Positions 11,152 to 31,429 of a stretch of DNA of 39,886 bases are shown piece after piece. Where the stretch lies: NCBI GenBank assembly GCA_017643365.1, contig JAEPNO010000024.1:1-39886 (forward strand). The letters run 5' to 3'. The notes beneath the pieces were generated by a model. It worked only from the letters and a program-made list of their open reading frames with translations. It made no database searches and was not told the origin of the DNA. Both the position numbers and the translations under genes were made by a program. Each line of letters starts with the position of its first letter. Positions within the stretch are counted from its first letter, which is position 1. This DNA is from Balneolaceae bacterium (GTDB lineage Bacteria; Bacteroidota; Rhodothermia; Balneolales; Balneolaceae).

Positions 11152-12051
11152 TTAAAATTCCATGCGTTTGATATGAGTTTGTATCGTATCGGAAGCTAAG
11201 GAACCAAAAATTCCTAAACCACCTTCCACATGAGTTATTGCATTTTGAATTTCACCGGGTGATAATGTGGAACCACCTAACTGTACCGATTCTGATCGAA
11301 CAAAGTCGTACACGTTATCATCAACCGTAGTGGCAACCAATTTATTATCCCCATAAAAGGCGACGGCAATCCATGGATAGCGGATGGTAATCGACTGATC
11401 TTGGTTGATGGTGAAATTGGCTGCATTTAGTAACCCTGAGCTGGTATTTGTTAGCTCCGACAAGTCCATTTCTTCATCATCATCAAAAAATAAATCGGCA
11501 TAGACAGGGGTTAAATTTTCGAGTGAGGGCTCAAGAGCCAACGTGTTAAAAATAAATACGTTTTGTCGGCCGGGATAAGTGCTTTCAGAAACCGTGATTT
11601 CGAGTTGCTCGGTTGATTGATACACTAAGGTATCGAGCACGGTGCTTATCACTTTAAAGGTATCCGGGACAATGGTTGTAGCAGTAATTTCTGCTGCAGA
11701 CGACGGCACATTTACATACAACTGATAGCTTCGGGCTGGTAACACGTTGTGAGCATCTACAGGTTGAAAAATACCCGCAGTATCACTCGCATAAGTAAAC
11801 ACCTCGTCGATATCGGTGCCGTTTTCGTTTAGTAATCGAATTTGAACTTCGGCATCAGCTACGGCAAATCTGCTGAAAGCGTATAAATCATCAATAGGTG
11901 CAGTGGTGGAAACACGTACTTGAGGCAATTGCCGATTGGCCACCAAATACGATTCTACCACGTAATACTCCTCGTAAGTATCCTGATTATAGACCTCGCA
12001 AGCAGCTAATAGAATAAGTAAAGCAAGAATGGTTAAAATATTGGCTTTCAT
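11152..12051 (-). CDS. DUF4249 outer-membrane lipoprotein
   Basis: A 299-residue predicted lipoprotein with lipobox LLAAC (cysteine near residue 18). DUF4249 features are the early VVESYLVANRQLPQVRVSTT, TTIVPDTFKVI in the middle and the closing IEGGLGIFG-like motif (here HVEGGLGIFGSLASDTI). In Bacteroidota these proteins are encoded next to a TonB-dependent receptor and are presumed to be its surface or periplasmic partner, like SusD for SusC. Here it starts 4 bp after the receptor stop, which supports that pairing. The substrate is not predictable. Confidence 0.9.
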   Translation of the reverse strand: MKANILTILALLILLAACEVYNQDTYEEYYVVESYLVANRQLPQVRVSTTAPIDDLYAFSRFAVADAEVQIRLLNENGTDIDEVFTYASDTAGIFQPVDAHNVLPARSYQLYVNVPSSAAEITATTIVPDTFKVISTVLDTLVYQSTEQLEITVSESTYPGRQNVFIFNTLALEPSLENLTPVYADLFFDDDEEMDLSELTNTSSGLLNAANFTINQDQSITIRYPWIAVAFYGDNKLVATTVDDNVYDFVRSESVQLGGSTLSPGEIQNAITHVEGGLGIFGSLASDTIQTHIKRMEF

Positions 12052-15297: not shown

Positions 15298-17601
15298 ATG
15301 GTCATCAAATCTGTTCGTAAACTCGTGTTATGCGGGTTCTTTTTCGGCGTGCTGTTATCGCTATTACCCACCCAGATATTCGCCCAAACCAGATCAACGC
15401 TCCGTGTACTCGTAATTTCTGAGGAAGATGGTAACCCCATCATTGGCGCAAACGTAATTCTGTTCCGCAAAAGCGGCACCATGTATAAAGCCGGTGCTAC
15501 CAATGCCGATGGATTATGGGAATTCATCAACGTAAATAATGGAACCTATGATTTAGCCATTTCATCGATTGGATTTGAATCGCACGAAGCCGAAATAACA
15601 CTGGCACCCGGCGAGACGAGAGTTTATAGAACCGAATTACCCACCGCAAATTCTGAGCTTGGCGAAGTAATTGTAAGTGGTACCCGAAGTGGTGCAGTTC
15701 AACGTGTTGCCGGTAAACAAACCATTTCCGTTTCCGATATTCAGCTTATCCCGGCACCGGGTCCAGGTGGCGATCTGAGTGTTTATTTACAAACCTTACC
15801 GGGCGTTGTTACCAGTGGTGACCGTGGCGGTGAGTTATTTATTCGAGGAGGTACGCCGGCACAAAACCTAATTTTGGTGGATAAAATGCCGGTTGTAAAA
15901 CCATTCCACATCTCTAACTTATTCTCAGCCTTCCCGCAATCAGTTATCAGTAATGTAGATTTATATGCCGGTGGCTTTGGTGCTGAATATGAAGGCGCTA
16001 CTTCTTCGGTAATGGATGTAAGTTTACGCCAAGGGAATATGCGTAAATTTCAAAGTCAGGTAGCTGCCAGCCCATATATAGTTTCAGCGATGGCTGAAGG
16101 ACCACTTCAAAAAGATAAGCAGTCGCTATTAGTAATGGGTCGATACAGCGTAATTGAGCAAGCAGGACCAAGCTTAACCGGCGAAGATGTGCCTCTAAAG
16201 TTTTCTGATATTCTTGCGCGTTACTCGATCAATTGGGATGGATTTACTTGTAATATGACAGCGCTTCACACCTACGATCGTGGTAAAATTAATCCACAAC
16301 GTGATATTAGCTTAGGTTGGGAAAACACCGCAGTTGGTGCCCGTTGTTTAGGCTATAGCGAAGAGCTTAAAAACTCAGTGGATTTCACCATCGGTTATAG
16401 TATCTACAAAAGTAGCGAAATTGGTTTCGATGATTTAGGCAGAACTTCGAATATTTCGATGGGTTATTTAAGAATGGATAACACCGGTACTGCATTTAAT
16501 CATCCATATAACTACGGTTTCCGTTGGAATCTAAATTTCTACAAAGCGAACTTAGACGAACCATTTCCGGAAATTACAGGTAAACCACAACGTTTTGGAC
16601 TGGGCGCAACCTTAGAAAAGTACACCTCTATTTTCAGTACATATTTAAGCACAGAGTTTAAACCCACAAATACTCTTTCTATCATTCCGGGTTTTACCAC
16701 ACAGATTCGACAAGAAAATGTGAGTATGACGTTCGAGCCCCGCTTAAGAATGACATGGAGACCATTGGGAACCGATAATCAAGAGATCAGCTTTGCAGTT
16801 GGTAAATATGCTCAGCTTCGAGAGGCGATTACCGACGAACGAGATGCCGGTACCGTTTTTTATGTGTACAAACCGGTTGCGGTAGATGATCCTGTGCCAA
16901 CAGCCATTCATGCAATCACGGGATATCGTCAACGTATTGGTAATTTCATCGAAGCCAACATCGAAGCATACTACAAGCATAACAGTAATGTGCCTGTAGC
17001 CGAGTGGACTCGCGAGCCGGGTAACACGATTCGAACCGCATTTGCTGAAGCTGAAACTTACGGTCTTGATCTTCAATTCCAGTTAAAAACCGATTTACTT
17101 TACGTTACCTTAGGTTATGGTTTAGCTGAAGTAGAGTACAGTGCATCAGCCGACGATCTTGTTGCATGGATCGAAACCGACGAGTTTGTTTATAACCCAA
17201 GCCATGATCGTCGCCACCAATTAAATGTGTTAGCGAGTTATAAAATTGGCAAGTTCACAGCTAATGCAATTTGGAGATACAGTAGTGGAGCGCCTTACAC
17301 TAAACTTTACGCCATCGATTTGATTGTACGTGTTCCATACCAAGATCCAATCCAAAACCAGGGTAAAGCCGTTACCTTGTATTCGGTGCCTTTCGATGGA
17401 ACACTACCTGCATTTCAGCGACTTGATGTGTCAATCGATAGAAAGTTTCAGCTTTCTCCAACCTTAGAACTGGAGACCGAAATTGGGGCTATCAACAGTT
17501 ACGATATGACCAACGTGTTCTATTTTGATGTAAATACATTACGCCAGGTTAATGAGTTACCTATGTTGCCGTATGCATCCATTAGTTTGAACATCAATTA
17601 A
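15298..17601 (+). CDS. TonB-dependent receptor with carboxypeptidase-regulatory-like domain
   Basis: A 767-residue outer-membrane receptor. The signal peptide ends at IFAQ (about residue 29). A CarboxypepD_reg-like domain follows (about 34-115; LVISEEDGNPIIGANVIL, AISSIGFESHEAEI), then the plug with GGDLSVYLQTLPGVV, GELFIRGGTPAQ and LVDKMPVVKPFHISNLFSAF, then the barrel. The plan is the same as the receptor at 12056-14326, but the sequence is clearly diverged, so it is not a recent duplicate. Two DUF4249 lipoprotein genes follow at 38 and 9 bp, giving a three-gene uptake operon. The substrate is unknown. Confidence 0.94.
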   Translation: MVIKSVRKLVLCGFFFGVLLSLLPTQIFAQTRSTLRVLVISEEDGNPIIGANVILFRKSGTMYKAGATNADGLWEFINVNNGTYDLAISSIGFESHEAEITLAPGETRVYRTELPTANSELGEVIVSGTRSGAVQRVAGKQTISVSDIQLIPAPGPGGDLSVYLQTLPGVVTSGDRGGELFIRGGTPAQNLILVDKMPVVKPFHISNLFSAFPQSVISNVDLYAGGFGAEYEGATSSVMDVSLRQGNMRKFQSQVAASPYIVSAMAEGPLQKDKQSLLVMGRYSVIEQAGPSLTGEDVPLKFSDILARYSINWDGFTCNMTALHTYDRGKINPQRDISLGWENTAVGARCLGYSEELKNSVDFTIGYSIYKSSEIGFDDLGRTSNISMGYLRMDNTGTAFNHPYNYGFRWNLNFYKANLDEPFPEITGKPQRFGLGATLEKYTSIFSTYLSTEFKPTNTLSIIPGFTTQIRQENVSMTFEPRLRMTWRPLGTDNQEISFAVGKYAQLREAITDERDAGTVFYVYKPVAVDDPVPTAIHAITGYRQRIGNFIEANIEAYYKHNSNVPVAEWTREPGNTIRTAFAEAETYGLDLQFQLKTDLLYVTLGYGLAEVEYSASADDLVAWIETDEFVYNPSHDRRHQLNVLASYKIGKFTANAIWRYSSGAPYTKLYAIDLIVRVPYQDPIQNQGKAVTLYSVPFDGTLPAFQRLDVSIDRKFQLSPTLELETEIGAINSYDMTNVFYFDVNTLRQVNELPMLPYASISLNIN

Positions 17602-17639
17602 TCGCTCCAGAAAAAAATTAAAAAAGAGATTTTTAAAAA

Positions 17640-18524
17640 ATGAAGACTATGTCTATTAAATACTTTGGAGTTCTTTTAATCGCAGTTGCCGGATTTATGG
17701 CATGTGATGAAGTTTTCATAGAGCCATTTGAAGCTGCTGACGCAGATTACTCGGTTTATGGTGCCATAGAGCTCGACTCTACCACAAATTATGTTCGAGT
17801 TAAAGACATTCAATCGCCTCTGTTAGCCAACCTCGAAGAGTTACGTAATTTCACGGTAACCTTCGAAAACATGGAAACAGGTGCCTCGAAACAACTTTCC
17901 GATTCTATAATCTACTTCAATAATAATCCTACGATGAATTTTATCATCGAAGAAGATCTTGAACCGCGAACTGCCTACAAATTAACTATTGAAGGCTCGG
18001 AAGGAGAGGTGGCAACAACTACCGCAACTACGCCGGGTGTTTCAACCCTTTCACTTACTCCTGAGGTTACTCAAGACTGTCTGGAAGACATTTTGATCGA
18101 GTTTGATAATGTTCAAGGTGATGAATTCATCCGTTTTGAACTAGGCGTTCAGTATCAAGGAAGTTTTTACTTTGGTGAGGTGAAATCGGTACGTCAGCTA
18201 CAAAAAGTTGAGGGTACCGATAAAGTTGCGGTAATACTAAACATCAAAAACATGTTGGTTGATGTATTTCCACCCGTAGCTGAAGCAACTGTAAATGTGC
18301 CACCACGTCGCTGGAATCCAACCGTAAATTGCAACCGCTTAGATAACGGTGTAATGCGCATCAGGTACACACACTTTGGCCCTGAGTTTAAAGTGATAGA
18401 AGAAAAAACCCTAGCTTTTGATGTGTTGGAATCAGGGGATGTGGACAATGGTATCGGATTTTTTGGTGCTAAAAATTCTAAGCAAATTATTTTCAGAACA
18501 AACGGAGTTCCAAATAATAACTAG
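17640..18524 (+). CDS. DUF4249 lipoprotein, first of a tandem pair
   Basis: A 294-residue predicted lipoprotein. The N-terminus MKTMSIKYFGVLLIAVAGFM leads into a cysteine preceded by GFMA (lipobox-like). An internal ATG at 17649 (MSIKYFG) is an equally good start. DUF4249 traits are DYSVYGAIELDSTTNYVRVK at the start and a C-terminal HFGPEFKVIEE, then NGIGFFGAKN. It shares VFPPVAEATVNVPPRRWNPT with the next protein (IFPPPPEATINIPPRLWLPT), so the pair arose by duplication. It probably partners the receptor encoded just upstream. Confidence 0.88.
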   Translation: MKTMSIKYFGVLLIAVAGFMACDEVFIEPFEAADADYSVYGAIELDSTTNYVRVKDIQSPLLANLEELRNFTVTFENMETGASKQLSDSIIYFNNNPTMNFIIEEDLEPRTAYKLTIEGSEGEVATTTATTPGVSTLSLTPEVTQDCLEDILIEFDNVQGDEFIRFELGVQYQGSFYFGEVKSVRQLQKVEGTDKVAVILNIKNMLVDVFPPVAEATVNVPPRRWNPTVNCNRLDNGVMRIRYTHFGPEFKVIEEKTLAFDVLESGDVDNGIGFFGAKNSKQIIFRTNGVPNNN

Positions 18525-18533
18525 ATATTTGTC

Positions 18534-19406
18534 ATGCATCTTAATCGCTTAGCTTTAGTTTGCCTTCTATTTAGTGTGCTATTGCTTTCATGCGAACGAG
18601 ATCGGGTTATTAACCCATTTGAAGACAACATTGGCACTTATTCAGCCTATGGTGCATTAGATGTAGATAAAGATCTTAATTCAATTCGCATCCGTAATGT
18701 AAGTAACCCTTTTTTGGTTGATAGCATTGTAGGCTATGAAGACGTTTCCGTGTTTTTCTCTGATTTTTCTACCAATACCGAAGTTCAGTTACAAGACACG
18801 ATCATCAATTTTAACGGTAATTACACCTACAATTATTTGATTCGGGAGGATTTGCAACCAGCATCTCAATACGGTATTACCATCCGTTTTGATGGAGATC
18901 AGGAATCAAAAGCTACTTTTACCACACCCGGCTTATCTTTCGCAGATACAACGCCTGATAAATCATCCGGTTGTTTTCAGTTAATGCGAATATCTTTTAA
19001 GAATATAAAACGTCCGGAATATGTAAGAGCGGAAGTAGGGGTTATTTATCAGGGCGAAGAACGCTGGGCAGAAATAAAAACGGTTGACCAAATCGATTAT
19101 GTAGAAGGCAGAGATGAAATGGAGGTAAAGTTAACAGTTACTAACCTTCTGGTTGATATTTTCCCACCACCTCCCGAAGCTACCATAAATATCCCGCCAC
19201 GGCTTTGGTTACCTACCGTAAGGTGCCAAGAACTGGATGTGTATACATTATTTATCCGATATATTCATTTTGGGCCGGAATGGGAGATTTTCCGGGGCAC
19301 AGACTTTCTAGATTTAACTTTTATAGATTCAGAAACCATTGAAAATGGACTCGGATTTATTGGAGCAATAAAACAGGGAGCAACACAATTTATTTTTGAA
19401 TTCTAG
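18534..19406 (+). CDS. DUF4249 lipoprotein, second of a tandem pair
   Basis: A 290-residue predicted lipoprotein with lipobox LLLSC (cysteine near residue 20). Like its upstream paralogue it begins the mature part with an INPFEDN...YSAYGALDVD segment and ends NGLGFIGAIKQGATQFIFEF. Identity with the paralogue is spread over the whole length but moderate. It starts 9 bp after that gene, so it belongs to the same transcript. Two different DUF4249 partners for one receptor could bind different ligands or form a composite lid; this is inference. Confidence 0.88.
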   Translation: MHLNRLALVCLLFSVLLLSCERDRVINPFEDNIGTYSAYGALDVDKDLNSIRIRNVSNPFLVDSIVGYEDVSVFFSDFSTNTEVQLQDTIINFNGNYTYNYLIREDLQPASQYGITIRFDGDQESKATFTTPGLSFADTTPDKSSGCFQLMRISFKNIKRPEYVRAEVGVIYQGEERWAEIKTVDQIDYVEGRDEMEVKLTVTNLLVDIFPPPPEATINIPPRLWLPTVRCQELDVYTLFIRYIHFGPEWEIFRGTDFLDLTFIDSETIENGLGFIGAIKQGATQFIFEF

Positions 19407-19542
19407 CTATAAAATATGAAGTTCGATCTCCTGCAAAATGCGATTCTATGTTAAGGCAATTTATGATTGTATAAAGGAATCTAACTCTTCTTATAGCTGT
19501 AGATTGTTACCATACAGCGGGATCAATAAAACGGTTAAGCTG

Positions 19543-22500
19543 ATGGCAAACACATACAAAGCATACATAGCTACTCTATTTTTTTGTTTGATTTTAAGCG
19601 GGTACAGTTCGGCACAAGAGATGTCGATTCGCTTCGAACAAATCACAACGCAGGATGGACTATCGCAAAGCACTATCAACGATATTTTGCAAGACAGTCG
19701 CGGTTTTTTGTGGTTTGCTACCGAAGATGGCTTGAACCGATACGACGGTTATGAATTCAAAGTATATCGCAACGATCTTTACGATCCATTTTCGATTTCA
19801 TCCAACCAGATATCGAGTATTCTGGAAGACAAAGACGGAGCAATTTGGGTGGGAACCAAAGGAGGTGGCTTAAATAAATTCGATCGAGATCAAGATCGGT
19901 TTTTACGCTTTCAGCACGATAATTCAGATGACACCTCCATCAATCACAATTACATAACAACCTTATTTCAAGATGATATTGGGGTGATTTTGGTGGGCAC
20001 CCAAAGTGGGCTTAATATTTTAAATCCTCGTACAAACACCTTCAGCGTATACAACGAGGTTGATGAACACATGAACCTCAGTACGGCCAATATTACAACC
20101 CTGTTTTTGGATTCGAACAGTTTTATCTGGGTTGGTACTGCAGATGATGGGCTATACAGTTTCGATCGAAAAACATTTGCAATTAAACACTACACCAATA
20201 TTCCAGGCGATATTACTTCGATAAGTGATAACTGGGTTGTCTCCATTTATGAGGATAGAAAACGAACGCTTTGGGTAGGTACACAATCTGGTGGGTTAAA
20301 CATGTTCGATCCAACTACTCAATCATTTAGCAGCTTAAAAGCAGATCCGAATGATCGAAATAGTATTTCGAATAATTGGGTGCTATCGATGTTTGAGGAT
20401 TCCAGAGGAACATTTTGGGTGGGTACCTTAAATGGGCTGAATATTCTTGATAGAGAAACGAATGATTTTACCAATTTCATGGAGCTGAATTATCCAATCA
20501 ACCTTAGTAATAATTCAATTACGTCACTTTTTGAAGATCGTTCGGGGGTATTTTGGGTTGGAACACAAAACGGGGCATTAAATAAATTCATTCGATCCTC
20601 ATCAGAAAGTTTTACCGTTTACCAAAATGATCCATCGAACGCCAATAGTTTGAGTAACAACTCTATTACTTCACTTTTTGAAGATGAATCCGGCGATTTT
20701 TGGGTTGGAACACAGGGTGGAGGTTTAAATCGGCAGGATGCGACTACACTTTCATTCATAAACTATGTGCACGATCCAAACGACGAAACGTCGATTAGCA
20801 GCGACTTTATAAACGCTATTTATCAAGACAGTTTTGGGGATGTATGGGTTGGTACCATCGAAGGATTAAATCTTTACGATGCCGAAAACGATGCCTTTAT
20901 TCATTTCAAGCACGATCCTGAGAACGAAAATACGATTAGTGGAAATATCATTACCACGATATTTGAGGATAGTAAAAATATAATATGGATCGGTACTCTG
21001 AATAACGGCCTAAATGCCTACGACCGTGAATCCAAAGAATTTCGACGATTCTCGCACTCACAAGAAAATCAAAATACCATCAGCCATAATAAAATTTGGT
21101 CGATGTATGAAGATGATCGAAGTGTTTTTTGGGTTGGAACGCATGGATTTGGCTTAAATCGGTATGATCGAGTTCGCGAAGAATTTACTCGATTTACGAA
21201 CGATCCGGACGATCCGACAAGCATCAGTGATAATTTCATTAATGTAATACGACAGGATAATGACGGAAATTTGTGGGTTGGTACTATTAATGGTTTGAAT
21301 AAATTTGACCCTGAAACAGAGACTTTTACGCGATATACCACTGCAAATGGATTGCCAAATAATTTTATCTATGGGATAATTGTTGATTATCGAGGACATC
21401 TCTGGCTTAGTACCAATAACGGAATTGTAGATTTCGATCCCGAAACGGAAAACATCAGAGTTTATGACCGTGGGGATGGATTACCAAGCAATGAGTATCG
21501 ATTTAATGCCTTCCATAAAGGAATCGACGGAACTATGTATTTTGGTGGGATAAATGGGATCGTGATTTTTAAACCTGATAGCATTCGTGATAATCCGTAC
21601 ATCCCGCCGGTTGTTATTACCGACTTCCAGATATTTAACGAAAATGTGCCGATATCATCGGTTGGCTCGCCATTAACAAAATCGATATCAGAAACAGACG
21701 AAATTGAGCTATCATGGCGCGAAAAAGTGTTTTCGTTCGAGTTTTCGGCATTGCACTATGCAGCACCTGAGCAAAATAAGTACATGTATAAAATGGATGG
21801 CTTCGATGCTGATTGGCAAGAAGTAGGCAGCCGAAGATATGTCTCTTATACCAATTTACCACCGGGCGAAACGTACACGTTTATGGTGCGCGCTTCCAAT
21901 AAAGATGGCTTATGGAATAATGACGGAAAATCAATTCGAATAAAAGTGCTGCCTCCGCCATGGCAAACTTGGTGGGCTTTTAGCTTGTACTTTCTATTTG
22001 GTTCCACCATCATTGTTGGTTTTATCAATCACCAGATAGGGAAAGAGCGTAAAAAGAAAGAACAGGTTCAAAAATACAACGAAGAGCTTGAAGCCCTAGT
22101 TAAAGAACGCACCCTATTGCTCGAAAACGAAAAAGAAAAGAGTGATAATCTGCTATACAATATGTTGCCAAAAGGTATTGCCGATGAGATCAAAGAAAAG
22201 GGATTTGCATCACCTCGAAGATATGAAGAAGTGAGCGTTTTGTTTACCGATTTCGAGAACTTCACTTCAACTGCGGCAACTATGTCGGCAAAGAAATTGG
22301 TTTCTGAAGTGAATGAAATATTTGAAGGCTTCGATTCCATTTGCGAACAGTTTGGACTCGAAAAAATCAAAACTATCGGCGATGCCTATTTAGCAGTTTC
22401 CGGCTTGCCCGACGATAAAGAAGATCATGCACTGCTTTGTGTGCAGGCTGCAAAAGCTATGCAAGAGTTCATCGATAAAAGAAACGAATCGGCGGCGGTA

Positions 22501-22779
22501 AAATGGAAAATGAGAATCGGTATCCACAGTGGTAGTTTGATAGCCGGTGTAGTAGGTAAAAAGAAATTCACATACGATATCTGGGGCTCTACGGTGATTT
22601 TAGCTAGCCGAATGGAGGAAGTAGGAGAGATTGGAAAAATTAATATCTCGGCAACTACCTGCGACTTTGTTCACGATTATTACAAGTGCGAATATCGTGG
22701 TAAAGTGCATGTAGAAGGGCAAGGTGATGTTGATATGTATTTTGTTGAAGAAGAGCTGACAAAGCCGATTAATAGCTGA
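19543..22779 (+). CDS. Two-propeller (Reg_prop / Y_Y_Y) sensor fused to class III adenylate cyclase
   Basis: A 1078-residue membrane sensor. The ATG at 19543 gives a signal peptide (MANTYKAYIATLFFCLILSG, cleaved near SSAQ); an ATG at 19438 would hide it. Fourteen propeller blades with W-V-G-T...G-L-N-x-[FY]-D motifs imply two seven-bladed propellers. A Y_Y_Y domain (YMYKMDGFDADWQEVG), one transmembrane helix (about 810-828), a coiled coil and the pre-cyclase LLYNMLPKGIADEIKEKG follow. The cyclase domain has both metal Asp (D903, D947) and the ATP-selecting K943/D1012 pair. At the usual Asn of the N-x-x-x-R motif it has Ile1019, while Arg1023 is kept. The propeller half is typical of hybrid two-component sensors, so the output here would be cAMP rather than phosphotransfer. 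Its stop overlaps the convergent receptor gene by 11 bp. Confidence 0.93.
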   Translation: MANTYKAYIATLFFCLILSGYSSAQEMSIRFEQITTQDGLSQSTINDILQDSRGFLWFATEDGLNRYDGYEFKVYRNDLYDPFSISSNQISSILEDKDGAIWVGTKGGGLNKFDRDQDRFLRFQHDNSDDTSINHNYITTLFQDDIGVILVGTQSGLNILNPRTNTFSVYNEVDEHMNLSTANITTLFLDSNSFIWVGTADDGLYSFDRKTFAIKHYTNIPGDITSISDNWVVSIYEDRKRTLWVGTQSGGLNMFDPTTQSFSSLKADPNDRNSISNNWVLSMFEDSRGTFWVGTLNGLNILDRETNDFTNFMELNYPINLSNNSITSLFEDRSGVFWVGTQNGALNKFIRSSSESFTVYQNDPSNANSLSNNSITSLFEDESGDFWVGTQGGGLNRQDATTLSFINYVHDPNDETSISSDFINAIYQDSFGDVWVGTIEGLNLYDAENDAFIHFKHDPENENTISGNIITTIFEDSKNIIWIGTLNNGLNAYDRESKEFRRFSHSQENQNTISHNKIWSMYEDDRSVFWVGTHGFGLNRYDRVREEFTRFTNDPDDPTSISDNFINVIRQDNDGNLWVGTINGLNKFDPETETFTRYTTANGLPNNFIYGIIVDYRGHLWLSTNNGIVDFDPETENIRVYDRGDGLPSNEYRFNAFHKGIDGTMYFGGINGIVIFKPDSIRDNPYIPPVVITDFQIFNENVPISSVGSPLTKSISETDEIELSWREKVFSFEFSALHYAAPEQNKYMYKMDGFDADWQEVGSRRYVSYTNLPPGETYTFMVRASNKDGLWNNDGKSIRIKVLPPPWQTWWAFSLYFLFGSTIIVGFINHQIGKERKKKEQVQKYNEELEALVKERTLLLENEKEKSDNLLYNMLPKGIADEIKEKGFASPRRYEEVSVLFTDFENFTSTAATMSAKKLVSEVNEIFEGFDSICEQFGLEKIKTIGDAYLAVSGLPDDKEDHALLCVQAAKAMQEFIDKRNESAAVKWKMRIGIHSGSLIAGVVGKKKFTYDIWGSTVILASRMEEVGEIGKINISATTCDFVHDYYKCEYRGKVHVEGQGDVDMYFVEEELTKPINS

Positions 22780-25384
22780 TTTTGACATTAAATGAAGGTT
22801 GAATGCCTAGATCATATACATGCGTTTGGAAGATTGCCGAGCGAGAAACATTCGTGATCGAAGTAACTGTACCAATACGTTGTTCATCGTACCAGGCATT
22901 TGCTCGATCAAACGTATTATATATCGAAAACGAAGCATCAATTTTCGATCTCTTGAATTGGTTTTTGTACGTCAGCGATACATCAAAACGAGAATAATTG
23001 GGTAAACGATTCGAGTTACCGATTCTACTTGGACTTCCTGTTCCGAAGGTCCATGCCATTAGTAGATTAAATCCTTGATTCAATTCAATATCCACAGTTG
23101 AGGTTAATTGATGTCGGCGATCCCAGCTTGGATTAAAATACTCGCCATTGTTTAACAGCTCGTTTTTTATTTCTGAAATTGAATAGGTGTAGGCATTGGA
23201 TAGTGTGACTTCTTTGTGCCAGTTTTTTACTAAAAATTCTAATCCTTTTGATCGACCATCATTTTCGTAAAACCAGGGAGTTTCTTCATTTCTAAACGAT
23301 TGTGAAATTAAACCGGTGTTCAATTCATGTAACCGTAAATTTGCAAACTGCTTGTTGAAAGCCTCCACCTGCACATAAGCCCAATTACTTGCATGATAAT
23401 ATACTCCACCTGATAAATGATTAACTGAAGAAGGAGGCTGATCCTCGTTCGAAAGAATCCAGAAGTCGTTACTGTTTATGTTATAAAAACTTAGACGATT
23501 GATAAATTGGTAGTTTCTGCTAAAACCGAAACCAATATGTAAGTTCTCATTTTCTCTAATCGATAATTTAATTCGGGGCGAGAACTTTAAATAACCACCA
23601 TTACTAAAATAGTGGAGACGGCTCCCAAGATTTAAACCAACAGTTTCGTTTGCGGCATAATCCCATTGTGAATATACATCAACAAGTTGGCTGGTTCTGC
23701 GGCTGATAAACGATTCTCTCACATCGCCTAACTCGGTGTATTGAACATCAAAATCGGTGTAGTTTACTCCAAAATTTATAGTTCCGGATTCTAGTTGTGC
23801 TTTAAAGCCTTGTTTGAGTTCAACTTGTTTTACACGGTTTTCTAAACTTAAAGGACGGATATTTACAGAATCGGTTTGAGCGCCATTGGCATTAGTTCTT
23901 ACCGGAAAAGCAAAATCTTCTTTCAGATAATCGCTGTTGAAATCGGTGTACCCAAAACTAGATTCAGAATATAAATTCGTATTTAAATTTGCATTAAACT
24001 GAGCACTTATGGTTGCGTTATTCCAATTATTCGTTGTTTGATTTGTAGTTATGATATTCTGTTCATCCCGAAAATAAGATTGTGCGGCTTCATCTTTACC
24101 AAAATAACCACTAATAATAAATTGATTTCCGTTCTCGAATTCTGAATACACCTTTCCATGTAAATCATAAAATGAAGCGTTGGTACTTTGAACATCAATT
24201 TCATCGAGTGAAATGGATCGAATAAACCGATTGTCGAAGCGAGGAGGGACTAGTATTTCCAACTCTCGGTCAACATCCAATCCGTATTCGATCATTTTAG
24301 AATTATTGAACCAATTCAATTCATCCATGTACGACCATCTGCCTGATAGGATAAAACTGGAGGCACCTTTTTTAAGCGGACCTTCGATGGTAGAGGATAC
24401 AGCTGTGTTACTTAATCCGAGTGTTGTTGAAAACTTATTTAACGATCCTGTTCGGGTTATTAACGATAGCGTGCCACCAAGAGGGGCATGAAATTGTGCA
24501 GGCGTGATATCGTAATAAAAACCGCTTGAACGCAGTACATCTGGGTTCATCGCATCGAGTAATCCAAATAAATGACTTTGGCTGTACATGGTTTGCCCAT
24601 CAAGCAGAACCTGAAATCCATCCGATGAACTGCCTCTGATGTTTATTCCATCGTTGATGGCCGTATTCATACTTACAGCCGGTAAAGTTTGCAAAGATCG
24701 TACGGCGTTACTTTCGCCAAGTGGACTAAAACTCCCAACCTTCATCAATCCATACAGCAGCGTATCGGATGGACTATAAAAATTTACGCCCTGCACAATT
24801 ATTTCTTTGCCGTCGTATTTTTTGGGGATAAGGCGAACGGTTACATCAGCTAAGTTTGTCGCTTCTTCCAATGAAACCGTTATTTGTTGACTCGCATAGC
24901 CGACATAGCTAACCAAAAGCGAAATTGATGGTTCAGAAAGCATAGCAGAAATACTAAACCTTCCCGTTGCATCGCTGTTTACGCCTTTAATTTGACCAAG
25001 CTCACGCCAAGAAATGGTAGCAAAGGGAAGACGCTCGCCTGTATAGGCATCAACAACAAAACCATGAATATTCACCTCTGAAGTTGAGCTAACTTCTCCG
25101 GTTTTATAAATGATAGCCTGATTTCGATTGTCGTTCACTTTTAATCCCAAGCCGGAACTTTGAATCGTTTGTTCTAGAATTTCAAAAAGATCAGATGGAT
25201 CGGCATCAAAACTTATGCGGATGTCGGCAATTAAGGCTTCGCGATATAAAAAACGGTATTCCGTGTGCGATTCAATATCACGGATGATCTCAAGCAGCGC
25301 TTTATTTTGATAGGAATAATCCTGCGCAGAAACCGCAGCTGTGAACATTAAAAACCACCCGATACAACTATAAAATCGCAGCAT
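22769..25384 (-). CDS. STN-domain TonB-dependent transducer/receptor
   Basis: An 871-residue outer-membrane receptor. After the signal peptide (ending AVSAQ) an STN domain covers about 22-95 (YSYQNKALLEIIRDIESHTE, IRISFDADPSDLFEILEQTI), as in FecA-type receptors that signal across the periplasm to a FecR anti-sigma. A CarboxypepD_reg-like domain (about 105-195; GFVVDAYTGERLPFATI), a plug (SMNTAINDGINIRGSSSDGF, LLDGQTMYSQSHLFGLLDAM) and the barrel follow, ending QPSFNVKISY. It begins 11 bp after the fecR-like gene, which supports co-regulation through the sigma factor at 27595. The substrate is unknown. Confidence 0.94.
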   Translation of the reverse strand: MLRFYSCIGWFLMFTAAVSAQDYSYQNKALLEIIRDIESHTEYRFLYREALIADIRISFDADPSDLFEILEQTIQSSGLGLKVNDNRNQAIIYKTGEVSSTSEVNIHGFVVDAYTGERLPFATISWRELGQIKGVNSDATGRFSISAMLSEPSISLLVSYVGYASQQITVSLEEATNLADVTVRLIPKKYDGKEIIVQGVNFYSPSDTLLYGLMKVGSFSPLGESNAVRSLQTLPAVSMNTAINDGINIRGSSSDGFQVLLDGQTMYSQSHLFGLLDAMNPDVLRSSGFYYDITPAQFHAPLGGTLSLITRTGSLNKFSTTLGLSNTAVSSTIEGPLKKGASSFILSGRWSYMDELNWFNNSKMIEYGLDVDRELEILVPPRFDNRFIRSISLDEIDVQSTNASFYDLHGKVYSEFENGNQFIISGYFGKDEAAQSYFRDEQNIITTNQTTNNWNNATISAQFNANLNTNLYSESSFGYTDFNSDYLKEDFAFPVRTNANGAQTDSVNIRPLSLENRVKQVELKQGFKAQLESGTINFGVNYTDFDVQYTELGDVRESFISRRTSQLVDVYSQWDYAANETVGLNLGSRLHYFSNGGYLKFSPRIKLSIRENENLHIGFGFSRNYQFINRLSFYNINSNDFWILSNEDQPPSSVNHLSGGVYYHASNWAYVQVEAFNKQFANLRLHELNTGLISQSFRNEETPWFYENDGRSKGLEFLVKNWHKEVTLSNAYTYSISEIKNELLNNGEYFNPSWDRRHQLTSTVDIELNQGFNLLMAWTFGTGSPSRIGNSNRLPNYSRFDVSLTYKNQFKRSKIDASFSIYNTFDRANAWYDEQRIGTVTSITNVSRSAIFQTHVYDLGIQPSFNVKISY

Positions 25385-25395
25385 TGAAATGTTGG

Positions 25396-26358
25396 CTATT
25401 CCATTGAGATAAATTCGTATTCGTTGGCATTTACAGAGCGGAAGGTTCCGCCTAAAACTAAGCCCAAATCGTCGAGGGTCTGAGTAACAGAATCTAGTAT
25501 GAGCGTACCTGTAATTTCTGAACGATCCTGAAGTTGATCAATATTTACGATAACCCCAAAATGTTGATTGATTTCGTTTATTACTTCGGCAGGATCAGAA
25601 CTATTGAACACTAAACTGTTTGATTGCCAATCGGTAAATTCTTCGGCGTTTGATTCAGAAAGTAATTGTAGCTCACTTTTGGTGATTTCAGAAGCCTGTC
25701 CGGGCTGCAAAATAACGGCTTCATCGGTCTGGTTTGATGAAAATGACACACTGCCTTCTTCAAGGTAAACAACCGCCTTGCCGCCCCAGTTGCTCAAATT
25801 AAAGCGAGTACCCAGCACAGTTACTGTACCAAAGGTTGCATCAACGGTGAACGGCGAATCAGGATTCGATACTACATCAAAGAAGGCCTCGCCTTCAATG
25901 CTGTAGCTTCGGTTGGTAGATGATCGATCAACAAAGAGTTTAGAATATGGACGAAGCGTAACTTCCGAGCCGTCTTGTAGGGTTACTTGCTCGATGGTGG
26001 ATTCACTCTGGGCCATCAATTCAAGTTGTGGCTGCATTTGCAACCAGAAGAACCCAATAAATGCGGCGATTAGCACCACAGCAGCAGAAGCCCAAGCAAA
26101 AGTAGAGGTGCGACTAAAGAGAGGAGTAACATTGGCTTTTCTCTGTGTTGTTTGTTTACTGATTTGATTCCAAATGTTATCAGAAACTGTTGCAGGTATG
26201 CTATACGTTGCCAGTTCTTTATTTTTGATGGCAATTAGCTGATCAATCAACGGATTTCCTAAATCAGCAAAAGACGAACCTGTGTTTAAGCTAGCTTCAA
26301 TTTCTTGGGCTAGCATTAAATCGGGATCGTTTGGAGGAAGTTGTTGATCAGTTGCCAT
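25396..26358 (-). CDS. FecR-type anti-sigma factor
   Basis: A 320-residue single-pass inner-membrane protein. The cytoplasmic N-terminal domain (about 1-85) would bind the sigma factor. A transmembrane helix lies at about 89-108 (FAWASAAVVLIAAFIGFFWL). The periplasmic FecR domain has QVTLQDGSEVTLRPYSKLFV, IEGEAFFDV and GTVTVLGTRFNLS, and a C-terminal DUF4974 domain (LVFNSSDPAEVINEINQHF, GTLILDSVTQTLDDLGLVLG) contacts the STN domain of its receptor. It lies directly upstream of the STN receptor. It is separated from the sigma gene by a lipoprotein gene with its own terminator, which is not the usual order. Confidence 0.93.
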   Translation of the reverse strand: MATDQQLPPNDPDLMLAQEIEASLNTGSSFADLGNPLIDQLIAIKNKELATYSIPATVSDNIWNQISKQTTQRKANVTPLFSRTSTFAWASAAVVLIAAFIGFFWLQMQPQLELMAQSESTIEQVTLQDGSEVTLRPYSKLFVDRSSTNRSYSIEGEAFFDVVSNPDSPFTVDATFGTVTVLGTRFNLSNWGGKAVVYLEEGSVSFSSNQTDEAVILQPGQASEITKSELQLLSESNAEEFTDWQSNSLVFNSSDPAEVINEINQHFGVIVNIDQLQDRSEITGTLILDSVTQTLDDLGLVLGGTFRSVNANEYEFISME

Positions 26359-26378
26359 GATGTTATCAAAAAATAGAA

Positions 26379-26402
26379 GCAGGTCGCATTATCACGACCT
26401 GC
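26379..26402 (-). terminator. Terminator between lipoprotein gene and fecR-like gene
   Basis: GCAGGTCG (26379-26386) pairs perfectly with CGACCTGC (26395-26402) around an 8-nt loop. On the minus strand the stem is followed by tctattttttg. It lies 12 bp past the stop of the unknown lipoprotein gene and 20 bp before the ATG of the anti-sigma gene, so it can end or attenuate the upstream transcript. Confidence 0.85.
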
Positions 26403-26414
26403 ATTCGAGTTTAT

Positions 26415-27350
26415 TTAGTTACCGCCTCTGCGATCAGTATTGCTGTCTCGACGCTCGCCATCACCTAGAGCAAATCGAATAGTATTAGGAAGTTTGTTGA
26501 ATCGCATTAGAGCTGTTCCATCTTCCGATAAGTCGATAGTTCCTTCCATTACGGTCTCTTCAGGAACACCATCGATGGTTTTATTCATAGTTACGCTGTA
26601 TGTGATGGTACCACTTACGGCAAATTCTAGCGAACCGTGAGCTTTAACAGTGTCTTTGTTTACTTCGATGTTTGTGAATTCTAAATCCACATTGTACGAA
26701 CGTGAAGCTTCAACTGAATCGCGTGTTACGCCTGCTGCATTTCCAGTTCCGGTGTGTGTTCCGCTAAGTGTTAAGAGAGAGCTGGTTGAATGAATACCTG
26801 CTAAGCGGAAGTCATCGGCTTTTGAAAAGCTACTGCTACGGAATTTTCCGGTATGTTGCCCTGCTTTGGTGCCAGAGTAAGCAATTGCTTCGATATTCTC
26901 CTTGTCTTGGCGTGGGAACTCGATAAATCCGCCTTCAAGATCTGTAAATATAATTGCCTGGTTCACATCAATTGATTTACTAAAGGCACCGTTTTCTACA
27001 CTGCGAGAGTAATCAAGGCTGTGGATACCTGTTTCGGGGTCGTAGCTGTAGGTATAGTTGCGCTCACGTCCGCGACCATCATTCCCACGATCAGGATCAG
27101 GTTTGAAACGTGCATCTGTACTGCCGTAGCTGATTCCTTCTGATGATACATCAGAAAAAGCGTCGTATAAACTGCTCATCATACCGGATTCATCGTCGGC
27201 GATGGAAGTAGTTACAATGTGTGCAGCCAGGTCAACGTCTTCAGCCGAAATTGCTTCAACATCGTTATTAACTGATGAACAAGCACCAAAAGTTACCAAT
27301 AAGGCAAGTGCCAGAAGAGATAGGTTGTTTAAGTTGCTTAGTTTTTTCAT
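26415..27350 (-). CDS. Unknown lipoprotein within the sigma/anti-sigma cassette
   Basis: I do not recognise this protein. It has 311 residues, with a basic N-terminus and lipobox TFGAC (cysteine at about 25). Mature features are an acidic first segment, an arginine/aspartate/glycine-rich patch (FKPDPDRGNDGRGRERNYTY), a middle with beta-like stretches (LAGIHSTSSLLTLSGTHTGT, GSLEFAVSGTITYSVTMNKT) and a charged, glycine-rich tail (DGERRDSNTDRRGGN). It sits between the ECF sigma gene and fecR. It has an SD-like agagg before its ATG and its own terminator after it. Position suggests it is a target of that sigma factor; its function cannot be read from sequence. Confidence 0.75.
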   Translation of the reverse strand: MKKLSNLNNLSLLALALLVTFGACSSVNNDVEAISAEDVDLAAHIVTTSIADDESGMMSSLYDAFSDVSSEGISYGSTDARFKPDPDRGNDGRGRERNYTYSYDPETGIHSLDYSRSVENGAFSKSIDVNQAIIFTDLEGGFIEFPRQDKENIEAIAYSGTKAGQHTGKFRSSSFSKADDFRLAGIHSTSSLLTLSGTHTGTGNAAGVTRDSVEASRSYNVDLEFTNIEVNKDTVKAHGSLEFAVSGTITYSVTMNKTIDGVPEETVMEGTIDLSEDGTALMRFNKLPNTIRFALGDGERRDSNTDRRGGN

Positions 27351-27372
27351 TTGAGTTACCTCTGATAATTAA

Positions 27373-27404
27373 TTAAGGATTTATTTTTTGTGACTCATCC
27401 TTAA
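27373..27404. promoter_or_regulatory. Inverted repeat in leader of the lipoprotein gene
   Basis: TTAAGGAT (27373-27380) and ATCCTTAA (27397-27404) are perfect inverted half-sites separated by 16 bp. They lie 23-54 bp upstream of the lipoprotein ATG. They could be an operator or a 5'-UTR hairpin. Confidence 0.4.
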
Positions 27405-27429
27405 TACACCTGAGATTAATGCTACCCCC
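27402..27429 (-). promoter_or_regulatory. Candidate ECF-type promoter for the lipoprotein gene
   Basis: On the minus strand GGGGGTA (27429-27423) and TGTATTA (27408-27402) are spaced by 14 nt, a G-rich upstream element and A/T downstream box that would suit an ECF sigma factor. It would give a leader of about 45 nt. This rests on the shape of the site only; no second copy was found in the window to compare. Confidence 0.25.
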
Positions 27430-27454
27430 AATCGAATTCAATTTTTTTTATTAA

Positions 27455-27582
27455 GTGAAAAGTGAAAAGTGAAAAGTGAAAAGGAGGGCTGTTGGTCAAT
27501 TTCGGATATTTTAACCAGAAACCAGAAACCAGAAACCAGAAACCAGAAACCAGAAACCAATAACCAAATTCCAATAACCAAT
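27455..27582. repeat. Two heptamer tandem repeats
   Basis: Four copies of gtgaaaa (27455-27482) and six of aaccaga (27513-27554), the second decaying into aaccaataaccaaattccaa up to about 27582. Both lie in the 240-bp gap between the ECF sigma gene and the lipoprotein gene, and the second ends only about 13 bp from the sigma stop. Confidence 0.9.
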
Positions 27583-27594
27583 ATCTGAAACCAG

Positions 27595-28179
27595 CTACCT
27601 AAAGCCATCGAGCTTGTTGCGTAAATCTTTCAGCGCTAATCCCATATGGTTCTCGATCGTTTTTACCGAAACCCCGAGCACTTCAGCAGCACTTTTGTAG
27701 GTGAATTCCTGAATGAAGCATAATCGAAATACTTCCTGTCGTTTTTCCGGCATTTGATTGATAGCATTAGTCAATGCCTCGGCAAGTTCCTGATTCTCGA
27801 TATTAGCGTCAGCTTTTTGGTCAGACTCTGTAGCCTCTGTTTCGGCATTTTCATCAAACTTTGAATGATCTCGAAATAAGTTCAGCATTCGCGTATAGGC
27901 AATTCTGAAAAGATAGGCCCTTAGAGACTTTTGCTCATCAATTTCTTCTCGCTTTTCCCAAATCATAACAAATGCTTGCTGAACCAGATCTTCTGCTTGC
28001 TGTTCTGAGAGTCCTTTTTTTAGCAAAAAGTGGTAGAGATAGGAGTGATGTACATCAAAAAAGAGTTTAAACGCTTTATGATCGCCAGATTTAATGGCGA
28101 GCAACAATTCAGGATTATCCTTGTTATTCTCTTTGCGGAGCGCTAAAAGAATTAATAAATAGAACATCAAAAATTTCAT
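27595..28179 (-). CDS. ECF RNA polymerase sigma factor (FecI-like)
   Basis: A sigma-70 group 4 factor of 194 residues from the ATG at 28179 (190 from 28167; an in-frame TTG exists at 28203). Region 2 has HKAFKLFFDVHHSYLYHFLL, EDLVQQAFVMIWEKREEID and SLRAYLFRIAYTRMLNLFRD. Region 4 has MPEKRQEVFRLCFIQEFTYK, SAAEVLGVSVKTIENHMGLA and LKDLR, i.e. an intact helix-turn-helix. It should act with the FecR-like protein and STN receptor encoded downstream. The first 14 residues (MKFLMFYLLILLAL) are strongly hydrophobic, which is unusual; a start closer to RKENNKDNPELL would be more normal, but no ATG, GTG or TTG is available right there. Confidence 0.9.
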   Translation of the reverse strand: MKFLMFYLLILLALRKENNKDNPELLLAIKSGDHKAFKLFFDVHHSYLYHFLLKKGLSEQQAEDLVQQAFVMIWEKREEIDEQKSLRAYLFRIAYTRMLNLFRDHSKFDENAETEATESDQKADANIENQELAEALTNAINQMPEKRQEVFRLCFIQEFTYKSAAEVLGVSVKTIENHMGLALKDLRNKLDGFR

Positions 28180-28239
28180 GCCCGAATATACAGGCAATTT
28201 CAAAACTTGTGCGTACTTTTATAGCAACTTTGCAGGCGT

Positions 28240-29042: not shown

Positions 29043-29996
29043 TTATTTTTTAGAACTCGATTTAAGATTTAACTCATTCAGCGATAAACCTTCCATCACC
29101 GTTTCGTAGTTTGAGATATCTTTTGGCAAGATGATGTCGTTACTCTCGCGTGCCAAGCCTTTCAGCTTTCCTAAGTATTTTTCAGCAAGTCGAAGTCGCA
29201 TTGCTTCGGTTCCCATTGGTGAATTCAAAGCTTCGGCTACTTTTTCTATAGAGATCGCGGTGGCTTCAGCCAATGATTCGATTTCTTTCGCCACACCCTC
29301 AGCTTCGTTTATGCGGCTTTGCATTTCAGCTTCAGAAATATTGATGATTTCAGCTCGAATCCCTTCCGCATCGTTAATTTTCGAGCCCTTAACACCTTCA
29401 GATCGGGCGATTACTGCACGGCGATCACGTTCGGCAGTCATCTGACGTTCCATCGCTTTTTGAACCGTTCTGGGCGTGATAATATTTTTGATTTCGTAGC
29501 GATGAACTTTTATACCCCAAGGCATTTCCATTTCTGCCAATACCTTTACAACCTCTTTACTCATAAAAGCACGCTCTTCGAAGGTCTCGTCAAGATCCAT
29601 CAAACCAATTACAGAACGGGTTGTAGTTTGAGACAGTTGAATGGCAGCATTTCTGTAATCAGTCACGCCGTAACTGGCATTTACAGGATCCATTACACTC
29701 ATGTAGATCACACCATCTACCTCAACCTTAACATTGTCTTTGGTGAAGCATTCTTGAGGTTCTACTTCGATGGTTTCCTCACGCAAATCTTGTTTGTAAA
29801 CCACTTTATCAACAAAAGGGATTAAGGCATGAAATCCAGGCCCTAAGGTTTTTTGGTAATTTCCAAGTCGCTCAACGATATAGGCAAACTGATTAGGCAC
29901 CAATCGGAATGACATGATCACTTTTACCAATAGATAAACCATAAAGGCCATCACCAAAGCAAAACTTACGTTTTCTATTATTTCAAAGATCGACAT
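29043..29996 (-). CDS. SPFH/Band 7 (slipin/paraslipin) protein, second of tandem pair
   Basis: A 317-residue stomatin-like membrane scaffold. An N-terminal hydrophobic segment (about 10-28) is followed by the SPFH core: IVERLGNYQKTLGPGFHALI, PFVDKVVYKQDLREETIEVE, the DNVKVEVDGVIYMSVMDP strand and YEIKNIITPRTVQKAMERQM. A long alanine/glutamate-rich coiled coil (about 185-265) follows. Such proteins oligomerise into membrane rings and work with NfeD proteins in membrane quality control. It begins 2 bp after its paralogue, with the NfeD gene first in the operon. Confidence 0.92.
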   Translation of the reverse strand: MSIFEIIENVSFALVMAFMVYLLVKVIMSFRLVPNQFAYIVERLGNYQKTLGPGFHALIPFVDKVVYKQDLREETIEVEPQECFTKDNVKVEVDGVIYMSVMDPVNASYGVTDYRNAAIQLSQTTTRSVIGLMDLDETFEERAFMSKEVVKVLAEMEMPWGIKVHRYEIKNIITPRTVQKAMERQMTAERDRRAVIARSEGVKGSKINDAEGIRAEIINISEAEMQSRINEAEGVAKEIESLAEATAISIEKVAEALNSPMGTEAMRLRLAEKYLGKLKGLARESNDIILPKDISNYETVMEGLSLNELNLKSSSKK

Positions 29997-29998
29997 GG

Positions 29999-30922
29999 TT
30001 ACTCTCCTTTTGATTTTGTGTGATCGCTGACTTTGCTAACCCCTTCGAAAAAGGTTTTTAAATTTGCAGTTTCGGTTGGCAGTACCGAAATATTCGAGGA
30101 TTCAATAATCCGTCCAAACTCATCGATGTATTGCTCCACTAATTTGGTTTTAACAGCTAATTCGCCACCGGGGTGTTGCATTGCCTGGGCAATACGTTTG
30201 ATGCCGTTAGCCGTAGCCTCAGCCACTAATTCGATCTCTTTAGCTTTACCTAATGCTTCGTTAATACGTTTTTGACGATTGGCTTCAGAAATCAAAACCT
30301 GACTGCTTTGCTGTCCTTCCGATTCGTTAATGCGCGACTGCCGGAATCCTTCGGAATGGGTGATTTCAGCTCGTTTTTCACGTTCGGCTTCCATCTGTTT
30401 CTCCATGGTATCTACAATTTCGTTGGATGGCCGGATATTCTTGATTTCGTAGCGCAGTACTTTAATTCCCCATGGTTCGGCTGCTTTGTCGATTTCACGA
30501 ACGATATTTTCATTCATTTTTTCGCGCTCGCTAAAGGTATCGTCAAGCGTGATTTTACCAACTTCGCTACGCATGGTAGTTTGTGCAAGATTAACCGCTG
30601 CCGCCTGATAATTTGATATCCCATAACTAGCTTTGTATGCATCCATCACTTTAATGTACACAAGGCCATCAACGGCAACTTCAATGTTGTCTTTGGTGAT
30701 ACAAGTTTGGCTGGGAACATCCAGTACTTGCTCGCGCATTTCACGCCGATAAGCTGGACGATCGACGAATGGTACCAAAAAATGAAATCCCGGTGATAAA
30801 TTCTTTTTGAACTTACCTAATCGCTCCTGAATTACTTCTTCACGAAACTCAACAATGATGAAAAGTCGGGTGAAAATGAAATACATCAACAAAATGGATA
30901 AGAGTGTAAATGTCCAAAACAT
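29999..30922 (-). CDS. SPFH/Band 7 (slipin/paraslipin) protein, first of tandem pair
   Basis: A 307-residue paralogue of the next gene. An N-terminal transmembrane helix (about 3-24) is followed by EEVIQERLGKFKKNLSPGFH, FLVPFVDRPAYRREMREQVL, DNIEVAVDGLVYIKVMDAYK, RYEIKNIRPSNEIVDTMEKQ and a charged coiled coil (ESEGQQSSQVLISEANRQKR). The two are similar over the whole SPFH core but differ in the C-terminal coiled coil and tail, so they may form a hetero-oligomer. It is located between the NfeD gene (15 bp upstream) and the second SPFH gene (2 bp). Confidence 0.92.
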   Translation of the reverse strand: MFWTFTLLSILLMYFIFTRLFIIVEFREEVIQERLGKFKKNLSPGFHFLVPFVDRPAYRREMREQVLDVPSQTCITKDNIEVAVDGLVYIKVMDAYKASYGISNYQAAAVNLAQTTMRSEVGKITLDDTFSEREKMNENIVREIDKAAEPWGIKVLRYEIKNIRPSNEIVDTMEKQMEAEREKRAEITHSEGFRQSRINESEGQQSSQVLISEANRQKRINEALGKAKEIELVAEATANGIKRIAQAMQHPGGELAVKTKLVEQYIDEFGRIIESSNISVLPTETANLKTFFEGVSKVSDHTKSKGE

Positions 30923-30937
30923 AGACGATGCCCTTTG

Positions 30938-31429
30938 TTATTCTTTTAATTTCTGTTGTTGGGTTGGTGGCTCAATACTATCAACCGGTTCTACAATCCA
31001 GGTGGTATTGTCGCGGTATTTTATGCGAACTCTAGATCCTGCAGGAACATCGCCGTCAATAGTGCGTGCCTGCCAAGAAATACCCTGAAATCGAATTCTT
31101 CCTTCGTTAGTCAGATCGTTGATGTCTTCAACTACATCCACAATTTGATCCATCGCTTCAAAATCTTCATCAGCAAATTTATATGTGGCTTCTCCGCCAA
31201 AATATTTCTTGATGAAGGGTAAAGCTCCAACCGTTAACACCACTGACGTAAGGAACCATGCCAAAGTTGCAGTGGTTGGGTCAGTTAGCAATCCTAAAAA
31301 CCGTAACACACCAACCAGTAAACCGCTGAACCCTAAAATTAATGCCATGCCACTAGGTAAAGCTGCTTCCAGAGCCATAAGTATGATGCCACCGATTAGA
31401 AAAATCCAGGTAAGTGTTTCGCCGTCCAT
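30938..31429 (-). CDS. NfeD family membrane protein
   Basis: A 163-residue short-form NfeD. Three or so transmembrane helices occupy about 8-75 (LTWIFLIGGIILMALEAALP, GLLVGVLRFLGLL, AWFLTSVVLTVGALPFI). A soluble OB-fold C-terminal domain (about 105-152) has NEGRIRFQGISWQART, then VPAGSRVRIKYRDNTTWIVE. Genes of this family are almost always beside slipin/SPFH genes, as here, and the products are thought to regulate or cap the SPFH assembly. It is the first gene of the three-gene leftward operon. Confidence 0.92.
   Translation of the reverse strand: MDGETLTWIFLIGGIILMALEAALPSGMALILGFSGLLVGVLRFLGLLTDPTTATLAWFLTSVVLTVGALPFIKKYFGGEATYKFADEDFEAMDQIVDVVEDINDLTNEGRIRFQGISWQARTIDGDVPAGSRVRIKYRDNTTWIVEPVDSIEPPTQQQKLKE

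Follow-up and report, generated by a model that had tools for sequence, protein, structure and literature searches.

The propeller and Y_Y_Y outside sensor usually sits on sugar-sensing kinases. In the hybrid two-component systems (HTCS) of Bacteroides, for example BT4663 (PDB 4a2l/4a2m), two seven-bladed Reg_prop propellers, a Y_Y_Y domain and one transmembrane (TM) helix are combined with a histidine kinase, a receiver and an HTH_AraC domain. Class IIIa adenylate cyclases (ACs), including mycobacterial Cya (5o5k/5o5l), Rv1625c and the C1/C2 domains of mammalian ACs, possess a hexahelical membrane domain and a coiled coil preceding a catalytic domain with metal-binding Asp residues, an adenine-specifying Lys/Asp pair and a catalytic Arg. 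The receptor guanylate cyclase GC-A combines an ectodomain, one TM helix, a kinase-homology domain, a helical linker and a cyclase dimer.

In the stretch of DNA analyzed here (the window; 39,886 nucleotides, contig JAEPNO010000024.1 of a Balneolaceae bacterium), a single ORF encodes, in this order, a signal peptide, 14 propeller repeats, a Y_Y_Y domain, one TM helix, a coiled coil and a class III cyclase. The gene and its parts are the following.

19543..22779, + strand: receptor-type propeller/Y_Y_Y/class III cyclase fusion, 1078 aa (translation, Pfam, full-length orthologues)
19543..19617, + strand: signal peptide, residues 1-25 (hydropathy peak, N-terminal helix in the model, orthologue starts)
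19621..21612, + strand: sensor of two seven-bladed beta-propellers with 14 Reg_prop repeats, about residues 27-690 (Pfam, repeat count, VIA-align)
21757..21951, + strand: Y_Y_Y domain, residues 739-803 (Pfam, E = 9.5e-20)
21970..22032, + strand: single TM helix, about residues 810-830 (hydropathy; helix 810-845 in the AlphaFold2 model)
22033..22212, + strand: signaling coiled coil/cyclase-transducer region with an HNOBA-like tail, about residues 831-890 (Pfam, model helices)
22216..22749, + strand: class IIIa nucleotide cyclase domain, residues 892-1069 (Pfam, structure matches)
22249..22251, + strand: metal-binding Asp903 (cyclase alignment)
22369..22371, + strand: adenine-specifying Lys943 (cyclase alignment)
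22381..22383, + strand: metal-binding Asp947 (cyclase alignment)
22576..22578, + strand: adenine-specifying Asp1012 (cyclase alignment)
22597..22599, + strand: Ile1019 (ATT), equivalent of the ribose-binding Asn (N1025 of AC C2) (gapless alignment, orthologue codons, phylum census)
22609..22611, + strand: catalytic Arg1023 (R1029 of AC C2), intact (cyclase alignment)
22714..22716, + strand: Glu1058, equivalent of the phosphate-binding Lys (K1065 of AC C2) (alignment, orthologue codons)

The translation start at 19543 is favored over an in-frame ATG upstream, at 19438, because the N terminus resembles a signal peptide and the starts of the orthologues agree. The protein matches Reg_prop with E = 1e-66, and its 14 repeats are spaced 43 to 49 aa apart. 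In an AlphaFold2 model (mean pLDDT of 85, from 21 aligned sequences), residues 27-805 superimpose by VIA-align on 4a2l, the periplasmic part of BT4663, with Z = 46.2 over 740 residues at 34% identity. The Guanylate_cyc match (PF00211; E = 1.8e-53, residues 892-1069) covers profile positions 4 to 182 of 183 and is therefore a full-length domain; HNOBA is matched at residues 830-882. Residues 889-1072 of the model align with the class IIIa cyclases 5oyh (Z = 28.4), 5o5l (27.8) and 1cjk (26.8). Thus, the initial annotation was right in describing an HTCS-type sensor with a 14-blade periplasmic part and a Y_Y_Y domain, linked through one helix (a single strong TM peak) and a coiled coil to a class III cyclase with ATP-type specificity residues, K943 and D1012. 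The sensor is common to HTCS, yet the protein is not an HTCS because HisKA/HATPase, receiver and HTH_AraC matches are missing from the chain, and a cyclase takes their place as the output. Compared with class IIIa ACs, it shares the fold, the metal-binding Asp residues, the Lys/Asp pair, the Arg and the preceding coiled coil but has an HTCS propeller sensor in place of the hexahelical membrane domain. The layout of ectodomain, one TM helix, helical linker and cyclase is that of GC-A, which was also among the structure matches of the cyclase domain; however, the ectodomains are unrelated, and the window protein lacks the kinase-homology domain and carries adenine-type specificity residues.

The catalytic site departs from that of class IIIa cyclases at two positions that the initial annotation had passed over. 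Both metal-binding residues (D903 and D947), the ATP-type Lys/Asp pair and R1023 are present. The canonical Asn and Arg set is incomplete, however, with the Arg kept and Ile1019 in place of the Asn: without gaps, the motif YDIWGxTVN(L/I)ASRM of the AC8 and AC9 C2 domains aligns with YDIWGSTVILASRM. The second Lys of the canonical set is also missing, replaced by Glu1058. In characterized enzymes, the Asn hydrogen-bonds the ribose and the Lys lies near the phosphates (PMC3591389, PMC10553838). Mutation of the Asn in mammalian AC lowers kcat 30- to 100-fold, and in the computed mechanism a critical role falls to the Lys (PMC10553838). Because two residues that are important in characterized enzymes are missing, cAMP production is not to be taken for granted. 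Conversely, Rv1900c, which carries His instead of the Asn, is active, and several other established cyclases also lack the Asn (PMC4886424).

Both substitutions recur among the 11 Balneolaceae orthologues. Whereas D903, D947, K943, D1012 and R1023 are invariant, the Asn position is occupied by Ile in 10 orthologues and by Asn in one (G019), and the Lys position is occupied by Glu, Gln or Ser in all 11. By comparison, 25 domains from outside Balneolaceae, chosen by their similarity to the window cyclase, retain the Asn in every case and the Lys in 24. A motif census across the phylum (296 genomes) located the Ile form at seven sites, all in the propeller-cyclase orthogroup, compared with roughly 280 sites of the Asn form in 76 genomes (summed from the table). 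The catalytic-residue loss is unusual and specific to this orthogroup. In the cyclase-domain tree, G019 is nested among the Ile-bearing sequences, so the Ile would have been gained once and then reverted, or gained more than once; the Asn and Ile codons differ by one base. The cyclase segment has the lowest, or about the lowest, pN of the protein segments among the orthologues (0.04 to 0.09), whereas synonymous sites are saturated, which precludes dN/dS ratios. Judged from these alignments, the cyclase domain is under strong purifying selection and is not decaying.

Full-length orthologues were found in 11 of the 92 Balneolaceae genomes, with 54 to 88% identity in the ten others, and the full-length relatives of named origin come from metagenome-assembled genomes of Balneolaceae, Balneolales and Rhodothermia. 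The initial annotation had implied that the architecture was out of the ordinary. The architecture itself stands, but it is not singular: across a sample drawn evenly from the phylum, ORFs of about 950 to 1240 aa from further families share the span from Y_Y_Y through the TM helix to the cyclase. In members of four other Bacteroidota families (f25, f30, f49 and f51), Reg_prop, Y_Y_Y and Guanylate_cyc were all verified by Pfam, and in three more (f31, f36 and f43) the fusion is backed by a single alignment across Y_Y_Y and the cyclase, outside the Pfam-confirmed set. The fusion is therefore recurrent in Bacteroidota. The other-family proteins for which domain order was compared (L085, L087, L089, L090, L093, L095 and L099) have the same order by Pfam and, unlike the Balneolaceae orthogroup, intact catalytic Asn and Lys; they include the nearest cyclase-domain relatives outside Balneolaceae. 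In the tree, the Balneolaceae proteins form one group (support, 85/74) that adjoins some other propeller cyclases. The remaining ones are scattered in separate parts, and the starred branches force at least two label changes; the fusion has therefore likely arisen more than once. A contig scan seeded with the propeller motif and relying on simple motif matching detected a cyclase motif in five of 80 loci, all five in Balneolaceae; among its other ORFs, some had motifs of HATPase, receiver or GGDEF domains and many stayed unassigned. The scan documents the swapping of outputs but does not count how widespread the fusion is. As judged from titles and the beginnings of abstracts, no paper describing a propeller/Y_Y_Y/cyclase fusion was found in the open-access PMC literature, so that this sensor-output combination, made from known parts, is apparently undescribed.

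Class III cyclases of other kinds were also encountered. A REC-domain class III cyclase (G000:C3:126546-127826; loci L002 and L200) is missing from three of the propeller-cyclase genomes (G012, G013 and G019). Very large class III cyclase expansions, with 21 to 43 YDxWG-motif sites per genome, were detected in genomes G229, G314, G148, G318 and G310 of families f30, f52, f31 and f51.

The genomic context of the gene was compared with that in ten other genomes. The initial annotation had placed two DUF4249 lipoproteins directly upstream, next to a TonB receptor, and had proposed a common substrate with this operon. The two lipoprotein-like genes at that location (17640-18524 and 18534-19406) have no DUF4249 match in Pfam even at E ≤ 1, and the DUF4249 gene of the window lies at 11152-12051 on the reverse strand. 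Furthermore, the upstream operon (15298-19406) adjoins the cyclase gene solely in the window genome and its congener G002. Given this narrow adjacency and the missing DUF4249 match, the shared-substrate idea is weak and draws no support from synteny. On the other side, the cyclase gene adjoins a convergent FecIR-like envelope signaling set on the reverse strand (22769-28203).

22769..25384, - strand: convergent TonB-dependent receptor-like gene whose 3' end overlaps the 3' end of the cyclase gene (Plug/CarboxypepD_reg in Pfam, Plug below the cutoff)
25396..26358, - strand: FecR-like regulator (Pfam)
26415-27350, - strand: lipoprotein-like gene (no Pfam match)
27595-28203, - strand: ECF sigma factor, part of the FecIR-like block

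An orthologue of the TonB-type gene lies beside the cyclase in seven of the ten other genomes, and a FecR gene is nearby in eight. This synteny alone suggests a functional link between the cyclase and the FecR/TonB block, and the region may instead simply have been inherited vertically. Farther downstream are a pair of SPFH/Band 7 proteins and an NfeD-like gene (29043-31429, - strand), the SPFH pair being found also near the cyclase orthologue in G012 (L108), and a glycoside hydrolase family 3 gene (37166-39478, + strand) about 14 kb from the cyclase gene. No SusD-like gene or adjacent polysaccharide utilization locus was found among the window ORFs scanned.

We favor, with a probability of roughly 0.55, a ligand-gated, single-pass receptor adenylate cyclase that is most likely slow or tightly gated rather than high-output; the slowness or tight gating is deduced from the replacement of Asn by Ile1019 and of Lys by Glu1058 in the orthogroup. 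By analogy with HTCS sensors and receptor cyclases, the periplasmic double propeller and Y_Y_Y domain, probably dimeric, would bind an extracellular ligand, presumably a glycan as in the HTCS relatives. The signal would be relayed via Y_Y_Y, the TM helix and the coiled coil and would govern the geometry of the cytoplasmic part, a class IIIa cyclase homodimer that would convert ATP to cAMP. This reading is favored by the domains and fold of the protein, by the full catalytic set that its near relatives of like architecture keep in other families of Bacteroidota, by the invariant metal-binding Asp residues, Lys/Asp pair and Arg, and by the strong conservation of the cyclase segment; the example of Rv1900c (PMC4886424) indicates that Asn loss alone need not abolish activity. 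The genome encodes seven cNMP_binding proteins, which are candidate cAMP receptors and also favor this reading. None of those scanned shows a canonical CRP HTH in Pfam, which counts against it, as does the change of both Asn and Lys, the latter to an acidic residue.

The serious rival is a receptor pseudocyclase that binds ATP and metal and dimerizes but makes little or no cAMP, signaling instead through a binding partner or the bound nucleotide. The confinement of both substitutions to one orthogroup, with all seven Ile motifs there against roughly 280 Asn motifs in the 296 genomes and the Lys replaced in every orthologue, fits such a protein, and the strong conservation argues for retained function of some kind. 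Yet a dead enzyme need not keep the metal-binding Asp residues, the Lys/Asp pair and the Arg, all invariant here, and Ile or His occupies the Asn position in other bacterial cyclase families, one of them active (PMC4886424). Mutation of the Asn costs mammalian AC 30- to 100-fold in kcat, but Rv1900c is active with His; we therefore rank the gated, slow cyclase above a pseudocyclase, which is the less likely of the two. Loss of the ribose contact might also alter or relax nucleotide choice in an active cyclase, toward both ATP and GTP or another NTP. The dual ATP/GTP use of Rv1900c has been tied to its missing Asn (PMC4886424), but the adenine-specifying pair is intact and invariant in the orthogroup, which makes this improbable. 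Least probable is a heterodimer to which the REC-domain paralogue contributes the Asn, as in the C1/C2 pairing of mammalian ACs. The paralogue keeps the Asn and Arg and is present in all eight genomes with the GSTVIL motif; however, its second Lys is an Arg, it is absent from the Ile-bearing G012 and G013, and REC-cyclase hits of the same length occur in Balneolaceae genomes without the propeller cyclase. This pairing was mostly rejected on distribution, given the two Ile-bearing genomes that lack the paralogue. For the lineage as a whole, loss of the ribose-binding Asn and phosphate-binding Lys under strong purifying selection may, as a tentative and rather doubtful proposal, point to HTCS-sensor-driven pseudocyclase signaling without cAMP or to a cyclase with changed chemistry.

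These findings show that, in several families of Bacteroidota, the large glycan-type sensor has been transferred to cyclic-nucleotide signaling. The Balneolaceae orthogroup provides a natural test of the need of class III cyclases for the Asn and Lys, with intact near relatives of the same architecture as controls, and the cAMP output of its strongly conserved, residue-depleted cyclase is a sharp, testable question.
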